A stretch of DNA of 33,103 bases from Planctomycetota bacterium (GTDB lineage Bacteria > Planctomycetota > UBA11346). The notes under the pieces were generated by a model that was given only the letters and a program-made list of their open reading frames with translations, was not told the DNA's origin and did not search any database. The DNA is taken from contig REDX01000131.1 in assembly GCA_007695355.1 (NCBI GenBank), positions 1-33,103 of the forward strand. The letters are read 5' to 3'. A program made the translations under genes and the position numbers. Each line of letters begins with the position of its first letter. The first letter of the stretch is position 1. Below, piece by piece: positions 11,502 to 15,909 of the stretch.

Positions 11502-12620
11502 TTAACGTAGGCCGTAGCGGCCCAGCCACTCGCTCCAACGAGCTGAGGTAACCAGGTCGATGAGAGCCTGGTTAATGTCCTTGCGCAGGGGGCTGCCCAG
11601 TTCCATGGCGATGCCGTAGTCCTGGCGTTCAAAGGTGCCGTCGACCATCATGAGGCTGCCGGCAGGCAGCTGGCGCACCTGGTGGGTAAGCAGGGGGTGA
11701 TCGTGAACCACCGCTCCCACTTCACCAATGGCAAGCGCAGCGAGGGCTTGTTCGAGATTGGCGTAGGATTGCCGGCGCAGCCCCTCGCTTTCTGCCCATT
11801 GGTTTGCGGTGGTGGCTTCGACAACGCCAACTCTGCTGCGGACCAAGTCATCCGGGCCGGTAATGCCCTGTTGGAAGGCGGAGATGGTGAGGGCGCTGGT
11901 AATTTGCGCAGTGACACTGGCAATAAGAATGAGGGCAGCAAACATCCAAACCAAGGCAATCAGGCGACCGGGGAGGGTAATCGGCGCCTTGTCTCCATAT
12001 CCAACGGTGGTCATGGTTACTGCTGACCACCAAAATCCAGCGCCAATGCCGGTTAGCGGATCTTCTTGGAACTGGGGATTGCGCCGGCGTTCGGCAAGCC
12101 AGATGGCAATGCCGATGCCGGTAAGCAAGAGCGAGAGGAAAAAAATCGGGACGAGAAATTCCGTTGAAAAAAGGGCGCCGAGGGCAATCAGCCAGGACGA
12201 ACGCGGTTCGCGGTAGGGCACGGCAATGCCCAGACCGGTAAAATGGAAGGGGTGGCTAAAATCCATTCGCGCTTCGCGACTCGGGGTGATGGTTATCGCC
12301 GCCGCCGCCATATCGACATCGCCCTGGCTGGCGGCATCCAAGAGCTTGCTCATGGAGTCGAAGGCTTGCAGGCGGTAGGTAAAACCGATGACAGAGCTTA
12401 GTTCATCAAGTAATTGGATGCTGAGTCCCCGCCAGTTGCCCTCGGCGTCTTGGTAGGAAAAAGGCGGCGCGTGGCGGGTGCCGATGAGCAGTTGCGGCGG
12501 CGCATTATGGGTGGCTTCGTCGCTCGGCGCTTCTTCGGCCTGCAGCCAGCCGCTTAGGCAAATCAGGCAGGCGGCTAAGGCGAGCAGAGCTCGGCCTCGA
12601 TAGCCGCCAAGAATGGTCAT
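11502..12620 (-). CDS. Prokaryotic ionotropic glutamate receptor-like potassium channel (GluR0 type)
   Basis: A 372-aa protein with a signal peptide (about 10-28) and a periplasmic solute-binding (SBP_bac_3) fold split by a pore. The first lobe is about 44-140, with the amino-acid-binding pattern I-T-P-S-R115-E-A-R-M-D-F-S. Then come TM1 (about 156-176), a re-entrant loop with selectivity filter T-T-V-G-Y-G-D (204-210) and TM2 (about 219-240). The second lobe is about 255-372. This is the order of GluR0 of Synechocystis, which gates K+ flow with amino acids. The arginine of the first lobe binds the alpha-carboxylate in the family; which amino acid is bound cannot be told. ATG 12620 is chosen because the signal peptide follows directly; the longer frame to 12692 runs into the upstream gene. 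It starts 4 nt after that gene's stop. Confidence 0.9.
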   Translation of the reverse strand: MTILGGYRGRALLALAACLICLSGWLQAEEAPSDEATHNAPPQLLIGTRHAPPFSYQDAEGNWRGLSIQLLDELSSVIGFTYRLQAFDSMSKLLDAASQGDVDMAAAAITITPSREARMDFSHPFHFTGLGIAVPYREPRSSWLIALGALFSTEFLVPIFFLSLLLTGIGIAIWLAERRRNPQFQEDPLTGIGAGFWWSAVTMTTVGYGDKAPITLPGRLIALVWMFAALILIASVTAQITSALTISAFQQGITGPDDLVRSRVGVVEATTANQWAESEGLRRQSYANLEQALAALAIGEVGAVVHDHPLLTHQVRQLPAGSLMMVDGTFERQDYGIAMELGSPLRKDINQALIDLVTSARWSEWLGRYGLR

Positions 12621-12624
12621 GAAA

Positions 12625-13962
12625 TTATTGCGGCGGTTTGCCGAAGAGATCCAGTTGTTTGCCATCTCCATCATCTCCCAGATCCTCGTCAAAGGTATCG
12701 GCGCGGGCCCAGTCCGGCATTTTCTTATTGCGCGGGCTGCGTGCTGGCGGCGCCTTGGGTGGGGCGTCTATGGGGTCTTCGTCGGGATCGGGCGTGGTGT
12801 TTGCCGGTTCAACCGCAGGAGCTTCGGTGTCATCTGGGGTAACCAAGCTGTCATTGCTATGATAATCGCTGCTGCCAACCTTGTCCTCGGTGGCGTTTTG
12901 CTCAGCGGTGGATGGGCCAGACTCCTCCGCTGCGTTCGCGTCCTGGCTGGTTGCCGGGTCTTCTTCTTTGTCGCTGGCTGGCGGCTGGGCTTCCGCCGTA
13001 TCTTCAAAGCTGGTGGCGAGGGCGCTGTCGAGGCGGGCTAAAATGTCGTCGAGGTCGACTTGTTTGGGGGCGCTTTCGGGACTCGCGGGCTCGGTGATGA
13101 GGTGAGCGTCTTTGGCTTTTTGCTCAAGCAGGCCAAGGGTTTTCAGGAGGTCCTGTTTTTCGTTAGCGCTGACGCGACTGGGGTCCTGTCGCAGTTGCTC
13201 AGGAACGATGCCTACGTGAAAGCCCAGTTCTTCCATGCGGGTGGCGCGGCGCAGGAGTTCCTCGTCGCTGGCGGCAACCTTCGTCGGCCGTTTTTCCTCG
13301 GGACTGGGAATGGGCTCAGTGGGGGCGCGGGAAGCGTCGTTGCGCTTAACTACGGCCTGGTTGTCGCGCCGACGTACTTGGGTGGTTACGGATTCATTGA
13401 CGCCGTACTTGCGTGTTTCCTCTGGCCGTTGTAGATCGTGGCGGGTACGGGCGTTTTGATCGATATTGTAGGCGGTTTTTGATTTGGCAGCGGTGTGGAC
13501 ATCGGTTTCGATAGGACTGCTATCGCTATCGGTGTCAGTATCGTTGTCGTTGTCGGCTGCCTTGATTTTCGTCGGCAGGCTGTCGTCTGGCAGGGCGGAA
13601 AAGAAATCCCCCTGACTGGGGCCATCATCGGAAACCGGCGCGATTGGCGCCGCTGCTTCATCATCGATTTCATCAGCGGTTTCATCAGCGGGATCTGCTG
13701 GACGAATCTCGTCGTCCTGATCCATCGGCGTGGTTGGGCGATCATCACCAAGCACCGGCGCCCGGCCGCGCCCACGGCCAGCGCCCACGCGTTTGCGCTC
13801 TCGGCGATCTAGGTGGCGTTGCCGCTGCTGGGCTTGCCCAGCCAGACTCAGGCTGGAGATGGCCCGGTAATAGAGAACCATGGCATAGCCCATGCCACCG
13901 AGGGTGATGAGCAGGATCACCCAGCGGCCACTGTGGAGCAATTGATGGAGCGTTTCGAGCAC
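12625..13962 (-). CDS. Single-TM, acidic disordered protein ending in a clamp-binding-like motif
   Basis: A 445-aa protein I do not recognise. It begins with one hydrophobic segment (about 14-31, W-V-I-L-L-I-T-L-G-G-M-G-Y-A-M-V-L), then a strongly basic stretch (about 44-66, many Arg), predicting a cytoplasmic body. The rest is low-complexity and rich in Asp, Glu, Pro, Ser and Thr, including N-D-N-D-T-D-T-D-S-D. Two segments look helical and ordered (about 230-290, with E-E-L-L-R-R-A-T-R-M-E-E-L-G-F-H; about 305-325, with D-D-I-L-A-R-L-D-S-A-L). The tail ends Q436-L-D-L-F440-G-K-P-P-Q, which fits the QL[SD]LF consensus by which bacterial proteins bind the DNA polymerase sliding clamp. The start is GTG at 13962, fixed by GAGGAGG 4 nt upstream. 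It is the first gene of an operon with the channel gene. Confidence 0.75.
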   Translation of the reverse strand: MLETLHQLLHSGRWVILLITLGGMGYAMVLYYRAISSLSLAGQAQQRQRHLDRRERKRVGAGRGRGRAPVLGDDRPTTPMDQDDEIRPADPADETADEIDDEAAAPIAPVSDDGPSQGDFFSALPDDSLPTKIKAADNDNDTDTDSDSSPIETDVHTAAKSKTAYNIDQNARTRHDLQRPEETRKYGVNESVTTQVRRRDNQAVVKRNDASRAPTEPIPSPEEKRPTKVAASDEELLRRATRMEELGFHVGIVPEQLRQDPSRVSANEKQDLLKTLGLLEQKAKDAHLITEPASPESAPKQVDLDDILARLDSALATSFEDTAEAQPPASDKEEDPATSQDANAAEESGPSTAEQNATEDKVGSSDYHSNDSLVTPDDTEAPAVEPANTTPDPDEDPIDAPPKAPPARSPRNKKMPDWARADTFDEDLGDDGDGKQLDLFGKPPQ

Positions 13963-14255
13963 GATGCCTCCTCGCCGAGGTTGCAGGGGCAGGGGATGCG
14001 CATCCCATCACAACCCCTTGGCCCGGCGTTGCTCATTTGAGCAGGTCAGCGCCTGATCACAAGACTTCACCTGGGGGCCCTTGGATTGGTGTGTGCAGCT
14101 TGGCGTTAAGCCTAAAAACCGCAGTAGCACCCCATCTTCTTCGTTGCCTCCTCCTCATTTACTGAAGTCAAACATCGTCGTCGGCGCCTCGAATATGGGG
14201 CACTACCGCGATTTTTTAAAGATCACCTTTTGGGTGAATGTCTATTTTGATACAA
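13963..14255. other. Intergenic region left of the MITE
   Basis: No gene is seen here; the sequence becomes AT-richer toward the right. It must contain the minus-strand promoter of the acidic-protein/channel operon. A small hairpin (TCACC/GGTGA around a T-rich loop, near 14224-14237) is the only structure noticed. Confidence 0.4.
13967..13973 (-). promoter_or_regulatory. Strong ribosome binding site for a GTG start
   Basis: On the minus strand GAGGAGG is followed by CATC and then GTG at 13962. It is one of the strongest Shine-Dalgarno sequences in the window and supports the non-ATG start of the single-TM acidic protein. Confidence 0.75.
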
Positions 14256-14364
14256 GGGCATCTCTATAAACTCACCCCTGGGAACGCCGAGCCCCAGCTC
14301 GGCATTGAGAATAAAGGACTTGCGAAGCAAGTCGGCCTTATTTGGTGAGTTTATAGAGGTGCCC
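14256..14364. mobile_element. MITE-like element, 109 bp, with TIRs and 4-bp target duplication
   Basis: Two terminal inverted repeats of 21 bp (14256-14276 and 14344-14364) match at 20 of 21 positions and begin GGGCA/GGGCAC at the outer ends. The element is flanked on both sides by ACAA (14252-14255 and 14365-14368), a 4-bp target-site duplication. Internally there are two perfect hairpins: 14286-14292 with 14297-14303 (7 bp, loop CCCA) and 14317-14323 with 14327-14333 (7 bp, loop GAA). There is no room for a transposase, so it would have to be moved in trans. A 4-bp duplication is seen for several IS families, including some IS5-type and IS1182-type elements; I cannot name the partner. Confidence 0.8.
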
Positions 14365-14379
14365 ACAAGTCGTTCCTCA

Positions 14380-14420
14380 AAAGGCAGTTGGGGCGACTTC
14401 GTCACCCCAACTGCGTTTTC
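14380..14420 (-). terminator. Possibly bidirectional terminator downstream of pgi
   Basis: A perfect 10-bp stem (14384-14393 with 14405-14414), extended by GAC/GTC inside the loop, is flanked by AAAA on the left and TTTT on the right. On the minus strand it is followed by CTTTT, so it can terminate pgi transcription; on plus it is followed by GTTTTC. Confidence 0.65.
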
Positions 14421-14517: not shown

Positions 14518-15909
14518 TTAGCAGGTTTTGCGCTCGGTTACCTTGAAGGCTTCCAGGGTGTGGGCCTTGTCTTCAAAGCCCACCCGGCCCAATTGCGCGA
14601 AGACGGCCTGTTTGTTGCTATCAACTCCGGGCTGATTGAAGGGATCAATGCCGTAGAGTTCGGCGCTCATCACCGCTGATAGGCTGAGCAGATAGTAGAG
14701 TCCACTGATCGTGGCTTCATCAATGGCATCCAGGGTAATCGTCATATTCGGACGACCGGCAGCCGTAATCACCTGGGCCGCAGTGGTAAAGCCGGCGTCG
14801 ATAATCGCTGCGATATCCTTGCCGGCGAGGTAAGAAAGGCCGTCAACCTTGGCGTGGGCATTGGGCACTTCCATGGCGACGCCATGATCTTTGGTGGTGA
14901 TGAAGGTGGTCACCTTATCAAAGGGGCCTTCTTGGAAGAGTTGCATCTGGCCATAGCAGCCGGTGGCACCCCAGCAGTAGGCTGGCCCGGGGCCAACGTG
15001 CACCGCCTTGCCCTTACGGTTCAGCATTTTACCTAAGCTGACCGACAGATTGTGGCTGTACCAGTCGGAGACCGTGGCGAGACGACGGGAAAAGGTCATC
15101 ATGGCGTGGATGGTTTTGCGGCGCTTGCGGGTCAGCAGGTATTGGATGAGCGAATGCATATAGGCGGGGTTTTCCACCGCGCGGTCGTGGCGGCAGCGCT
15201 TGTCCATATCCGCAGCGCCGCTGATCAGGGCGTCCACATCGAGATTGCAGAGGCCGGCTAGCAGCAAACTGTGGGGGCCTAGCCAAGCCATGCGATCTTG
15301 GAGATTGCCGGGCAGGGGGATAATGCTGGCTTTGGCGCTGCCCAGGGCCGCGGCCAAGGGGCTGGAAGGATCGGTAAAGCCGAGTACCTGCTTGGTCACC
15401 GCGTCTTTGCCGGATTTTTTCCTTAGCCAAGCCTCTAGCCAAATATAGATGGCATTGGTTTCGGCGGTATTGCCAGAGCGGCTGACCACCAGGAAGAGGG
15501 TCTTCTTGGGGTCGATGACTTCGCAGAGATCGTTAATGCTTTTGGGGTCAAGATTATCGATGGCGAAGACGAGGGGGCCACCCTTGCGGGCTTTGCTGGG
15601 CAGTTGATTCCACTGTTCGTGCAGCAGGGAGTGAACCAGGGTGAGGGGGGTGATTGCGGCCCCGCCCATGCCCACCACTACCACCGCGTCCCACTTGCCC
15701 TTATGTGCTTTAAGCAGCTCTTTCACCGGCTTGGTATCTTGGTAGGGCATGTCGAAGAAGGCGCTTTCGCCGGTGCTACGCAGCTCTTCGATGGCCTCGT
15801 GGTATTTGGGGAATTTAGCGACTAACGTATCCACCTCCGCATCGGTGAGGCCATGGGTGGCGCCAATGCTGCCGGCAAGGGAGTGGGTGTAGTCAAGAAT
15901 TAGGCTCAT
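14518..15909 (-). CDS. pgi: Glucose-6-phosphate isomerase
   Basis: A 463-aa cytoplasmic enzyme that interconverts glucose-6-phosphate and fructose-6-phosphate. The first SIS domain shows V-V-V-G-M-G-G-A-A-I-T (about 77-88) and V-V-S-R-S-G-N-T-A-E-T-N (about 140-152), the sugar-phosphate loop. The C-terminal part contains Y-G-I-D-P-F-N-Q-P-G-V-D-S-N-K (about 412-426), which holds the conserved D-P-F-x-Q-P-G-V-E-x-x-K element with the catalytic-site lysine; here Glu is replaced by Asp in G-V-D. The length fits the shorter bacterial form. The ATG at 15909 follows GGAG by 5 nt. It is monocistronic; a hairpin and a terminator follow. The assignment as Pgi rather than a related SIS isomerase is well supported by the C-terminal signature. 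Confidence 0.93.
   Translation of the reverse strand: MSLILDYTHSLAGSIGATHGLTDAEVDTLVAKFPKYHEAIEELRSTGESAFFDMPYQDTKPVKELLKAHKGKWDAVVVVGMGGAAITPLTLVHSLLHEQWNQLPSKARKGGPLVFAIDNLDPKSINDLCEVIDPKKTLFLVVSRSGNTAETNAIYIWLEAWLRKKSGKDAVTKQVLGFTDPSSPLAAALGSAKASIIPLPGNLQDRMAWLGPHSLLLAGLCNLDVDALISGAADMDKRCRHDRAVENPAYMHSLIQYLLTRKRRKTIHAMMTFSRRLATVSDWYSHNLSVSLGKMLNRKGKAVHVGPGPAYCWGATGCYGQMQLFQEGPFDKVTTFITTKDHGVAMEVPNAHAKVDGLSYLAGKDIAAIIDAGFTTAAQVITAAGRPNMTITLDAIDEATISGLYYLLSLSAVMSAELYGIDPFNQPGVDSNKQAVFAQLGRVGFEDKAHTLEAFKVTERKTC

Follow-up and report, generated by a model that had tools for sequence, protein, structure and literature searches.

Proteins that bind the bacterial sliding clamp DnaN carry a short motif, QL[S/D]LF or QxxLF, often within a flexible C-terminal tail (PMC12309361, PMC4549789, PMC11139829). 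The definition given for the motif is QL[S/D]LF, or QxxLF in general terms, and positions 1, 4 and 5 are the critical ones (PMC12309361), and QxxLF is accepted as the general clamp motif (PMC4549789); the strongest pentapeptide is QLDLF, in which position 2 is tolerant and Leu is preferred (PMC11139829). UmuC (DNA polymerase V), whose clamp motif is QLNLF (PMC11139829), is a clamp-binding protein that is kept at the membrane before activation (PMC4552617), and the dynamin-like CrfC of E. coli has been listed among the sliding-clamp partners outside the polymerases and repair enzymes (PMC4284645). Membranes are not mentioned in a review of the beta clamp (PMC11139829). Our literature search found no transmembrane protein with a clamp-binding motif. 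CrfC itself is a large dynamin-like GTPase that is not known to have an N-terminal anchor or a long disordered arm. ZipA, a division anchor, possesses an N-out single membrane helix, a basic stretch, a long disordered linker and a cytoplasmic functional C-terminus.

In the window, by which we mean the whole 33,103-nucleotide stretch of DNA analysed here, a gene encoding a protein of 445 aa was located at positions 12625..13962 on the minus strand, with a GTG start at 13962 and a TAA stop at 12625-12627. We refer to it as the tether gene, after the proposed role of its product as a clamp tether; the features of the window given below lie on the minus strand unless they are marked as having no strand assigned. 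The start codon is preceded by GAGGAGG, and the translation start context (GAGGAGGCATCGTG, 13960..13975) is Shine-Dalgarno-like immediately before the GTG. Over 12625-13962 the plus strand contains stops and no open frame. The interval proposed in the initial annotation coincides exactly with this open reading frame; the strand, which had not been given there, is minus. The same annotation was also right about the anatomy of the protein, namely a single N-terminal membrane segment, a basic stretch, an acidic region and QLDLF at residues 436-440. The predicted transmembrane helix spans residues ~14-32 (13867..13923), as judged by hydropathy and charge in homologues and by a helix in the AlphaFold model, with one basic residue ahead of it and eight in the 30 residues behind it. 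The hydrophobic segment is followed by the basic stretch RRERKRVGAGRGRGR, and a basic juxtamembrane stretch covers residues 52-68 (DRRERKRVGAGRGRGRA, 13759..13809). Beyond the membrane region the linker is acidic (87 D/E vs 44 K/R), and the candidate clamp-binding motif QLDLF (12643..12657) is separated from the C-terminus by five residues.

Comparison with the described systems showed that the tether protein shares its motif with DnaE, PolC, MutS, DinB, Hda and the transposases that have a C-terminal beta-binding peptide. These proteins are cytosolic enzymes or regulators that have folded domains, whereas the tether protein appears to be a membrane-anchored disordered chain without a known domain. 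UmuC resembles it in clamp binding and membrane retention, but is a folded polymerase that shows no obvious membrane anchor at its N-terminus, is regulated through UmuD cleavage and is unrelated in sequence; no Pfam match to the IMS catalytic domain of Y-family polymerases was found in the tether protein. Likewise, the tether protein had no Pfam match to the dynamin GTPase domain, and no dynamin family occurred among the matches of 16 homologues. Division anchors of the ZipA type are similar in layout, yet ZipA has a folded FtsZ-binding domain at its C-terminus, where the tether protein has a short clamp-type peptide, and no sequence relation between them was found. The tether protein also gave no Pfam match to an FtsZ-binding fold, and its C-terminal region has no predicted structure. 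The motif itself was already known; our literature search did not find it paired with both a membrane anchor and a disordered arm that lacks domains.

The class of Planctomycetota to which the window belongs was sampled by one family comprising 23 genomes, and a profile search detected the tether gene in 19 of them; the four genomes without it are 61-72% complete. Outside the class, nothing convincing was found among 392 genomes of the phylum, where the search returned only three marginal matches, all of them unrelated: one CheA-like protein and two instances of a short coiled coil. No part of the tether protein alignment was sufficiently conserved to serve as the query of a contig scan, for which the linked pgi gene was taken. 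Viral contigs contained zero relatives of the tether protein, so a phage origin of the gene was dropped. No match to the protein was found in Pfam, NCBIfam or PDB sequences; weak Pfam matches among the homologues (Pup, SARAF, DUF7119 and COOH-NH2_lig) were scattered over one or two members each at E 0.009 or worse, and were rejected. Over 16 homologues the mean column identity is 21%, while protein length ranges from ~200 to 552 residues and that of the arm from ~160 to 510 residues. The composition of the arm also varies, being acidic or Pro/Ala-rich depending on the lineage. In homologues whose N-terminus is intact, the membrane helix and the basic stretch beside it are found again, with 0-1 basic residues ahead of the helix and 3-10 among the 30 residues that follow. 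By the positive-inside rule, this flanking charge suggests an N-out, C-in orientation with a cytoplasmic long arm and tail, and hence we infer that the QxxLF tail lies on the cytoplasmic side in these homologues.

Conservation of the tail was evaluated in the 16 homologues whose C-terminus is complete. The results showed that Q-x-x-L-F is present at the extreme C-terminus of 14 of them, followed by 0-5 residues, in the versions QLDLF (n=2, the genus of the window), QQKLF (n=7), QQRLF (n=3), QQSLF (n=1) and QQNLF (n=1); the tail peptides of the family include GKQLDLFGKPPQ and DDTQQKLF. The invariant positions are 1, 4 and 5. The site of the motif, at the extreme C-terminus and without predicted structure, is thus kept in orthologues. 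When the C-terminal 60 residues of these 16 proteins were shuffled, 0.009 occurrences of QxxLF in the last 12 residues were expected, compared with 14 observed. At the DNA level, the pattern QQ[KR]LF plus a stop-like codon matched ten times across the 23 genomes, seven times in the tether gene, and a reversed control pattern matched twice. In the two genes from the same genus, three of the seven GKQLDLF codons differ, all silently (AAA/AAG, CAA/CAG and CTC/CTT). The consensus QL[SD]LF quoted in the initial annotation for DnaN-binding proteins agrees with the literature (PMC12309361), and its suggestion to align homologues gave a clear outcome, in that the tail and its C-terminal position are kept in 14 of 16 while the arm diverges. 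Loss of the tail from homologues, which it had regarded as evidence against clamp binding, was seen in two, from genomes G002 (L082) and G019 (L079), as against the 14 of 16 that keep QxxLF. No frame-shifted remnant of the tail was found when sought in these two genomes. The homologues of G002 and G019 also lack the internal LF block described below, and both genomes are only 2.3 Mb.

The motif was then compared with the clamp-binding sequences of the same class. DnaE proteins of the class carry QQTLF, QNTLF, QATLF, QTTLF or QTSLF at the known clamp site of DnaE, directly behind the HHH region, and MutS proteins carry mostly QLTLF or QLSLF near the C-terminus. Since DnaE of the same genomes has QQTLF or QNTLF, Q at position 2 is normal here, and QQ[KR]LF fits local usage. 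Clamp binding may nevertheless be weak, because position 2 is Q in most relatives and not the aliphatic residue that well-studied clamps prefer. DnaN is encoded in most genomes of the class, and the two DnaN proteins examined keep a C-terminal LIMPI segment, the counterpart of VMPM in solved clamps. No dnaN match was found in the draft assembly of the window itself (3.46 Mb, 308 contigs, 86% complete); as a sister genome of the genus has two, the absence is most simply attributed to the incomplete draft. The DnaN-like genes of this sister, G001, are located at C129:1514-1861 and C146:1309-1629, and one of them may be a paralogue or a contaminant.

The initial annotation described the linker as acidic and of low complexity. 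The acidic composition was confirmed, but the linker is not featureless, as several conserved short blocks lie within it. Block A (residues 238-249, RRATRMEELGFH, 13216..13251) has invariant G247 and H249 in the alignment and coincides in part with a model helix at 230-245. Block B (residues 304-315, LDDILARLDSAL, 13018..13053) has invariant L, I, L, D and L columns and a model helix at 304-317, and block C (residues 416-429, PDWARADTFDEDLG, 12676..12717) occurs in the longer homologues only. The family consensus sequences are RxAxRMEELGFH, LDDILxRxDxxL and PxWARADxxDED for blocks A, B and C, respectively. The AlphaFold model, built with eight sequences, has a confident N-terminal helix at residues 13-59, with block pLDDT of 79-95 over residues 1-40 and the highest values in the membrane part, and short helices of low to medium confidence at blocks A and B; elsewhere, including the tail, pLDDT is mostly below 60. 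A further LF-like block, QGDFFSAL (residues 117-124, 13591..13614), is a possible weak second clamp motif. The pattern Q-x-x-[LF]-[LF]-x-x-L is found after the basic region, at residues ~75-137, in all six members of the acidic subgroup, which consists of the window protein and the homologues in G001, G007, G008, G009 and G012 (versions QGDFFSAL, QFSLLDSL, QEDLLSVL, QEDLLARL, QSDLLSAL and QSNLLDAL). Its frequency in shuffled sequences is 0.0004 to 0.005 each, for a pattern picked after inspection of the sequences. Several non-acidic homologues have xLFxGL or a similar block without Q at this place. In the acidic homologues, the internal block could possibly provide a second clamp contact.

Analysis of the neighborhood showed neither dnaN nor other replication genes near the tether gene, and the sole recurring neighbor is the glucose-6-phosphate isomerase gene pgi, situated upstream at 14518..15909. 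The two genes adjoin in ten class genomes (G000, G001, G002, G005, G006, G011, G013, G016, G018 and G021). In G008, G009 and G019 the tether gene is placed elsewhere, away from pgi, which makes the linkage look historical and not functional; we do not think that the two genes serve a common function. The pgi product falls far short of the NCBIfam equivalog cut-offs in its scores, and its N-terminus is conserved and distinctive (in relatives, LDYTNCLAEAIGATHGLTKSEVDTLVAKFPKHHE); it is a divergent class-specific form of glucose-6-phosphate isomerase. Between the two genes, at 14240-14380 (no strand assigned), lies a near-palindrome of ~120 bp with the arms GGGCACCTCTATAAACTCACC and GGGGTGAGTTTATAGAGATGCCC; with 46 matches in its own genome, it is a high-copy MITE-like repeat. 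Downstream, at 11502-12620, a family-3 solute-binding domain split around a TTVGYGD channel segment identifies the predicted product as a bacterial potassium channel of the ionotropic-glutamate-receptor type. In G001, too, the tether gene has a relative of the channel gene downstream.

Based on these results, we propose that the tether protein is a class-specific membrane-anchored, disordered multi-motif scaffold that would tether DnaN, and with it DNA loaded with clamps, to the inner membrane, a reading to which we assign a probability of roughly 0.68. From sequence we infer membrane insertion, the cytoplasmic tail, DnaN binding and tethering, the tethering role being read from the anatomy of the protein. 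In the proposed mechanism, the N-terminal helix would sit in the inner membrane with the remaining chain in the cytoplasm, as indicated by charge and hydropathy that are consistent across homologues. The flexible arm of ~160-510 residues would end in the Q-x-x-L-F peptide, and this conserved peptide is predicted to dock into the hydrophobic pocket of DnaN. Clamps, and hence newly replicated DNA or the replisome, might thereby be kept within ~10-25 nm of the membrane on average, as estimated by a rough random-coil formula that places the tail at a mean distance of ~11-23 nm, and blocks A, B and C would probably recruit further partners, creating a link from replication to the envelope. A more specific version, put forward tentatively and at a little short of even odds, holds that the protein is a class-wide dedicated clamp tether, a disordered chain with several motifs that directly joins DNA with loaded clamps to the inner membrane, and that the second block of the acidic subgroup could allow each chain to engage the two pockets of a dimeric clamp together.

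Three other explanations were weighed. The tail could bind DnaN to bring in a membrane-held repair or regulatory partner through block A, B or C, or could compete with polymerases, without any anchoring of the replisome. The several further conserved linear blocks do suggest more than one partner, and there is a precedent in UmuC, which E. coli keeps at its membrane until damage has been processed (PMC4552617); however, the tether protein lacks an enzyme domain, nothing in Pfam or NCBIfam matches it convincingly, and a conserved repair neighbor is absent, so that we consider this explanation unlikely. We regard it as more improbable still that the C-terminal QxxLF binds some other partner, such as a protease adaptor, a PDZ-like domain or an envelope or division protein, with the clamp likeness arising by convergence. 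It would accommodate the Q at position 2 of most homologues, one short motif can serve several pockets, and DnaN binding is itself predicted. Against this, a near-identical pentapeptide is present in DnaE of the same genomes, and the kept positions 1, 4 and 5 match known clamp binding. Moreover, four homologues have residues beyond the motif (QLDLFGKPPQ, QLDLFDKPD, QQSLFD and QQNLFD), which disfavors readers of a free carboxylate such as PDZ domains and C-degrons; a motif that tolerates following residues has no need of a free carboxylate, in keeping with clamp docking. Lastly, a chance pentapeptide in the tail, rich in D and L, of a low-complexity protein of no importance, an option the initial annotation had left standing, is barely credible given 14 of 16 tails against 0.009 expected by shuffling, the rarity of QQ[KR]LF-stop elsewhere in the genomes and the silent GKQLDLF substitutions, even though two homologues lack the tail and the arm is low in complexity.

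It has long been asked how replication forks in bacteria relate to the membrane, and the tether protein bears on this question. Read as a membrane-anchored tether of the sliding clamp, it offers a hypothesis for the function of a core gene in an uncultured class of Planctomycetota.
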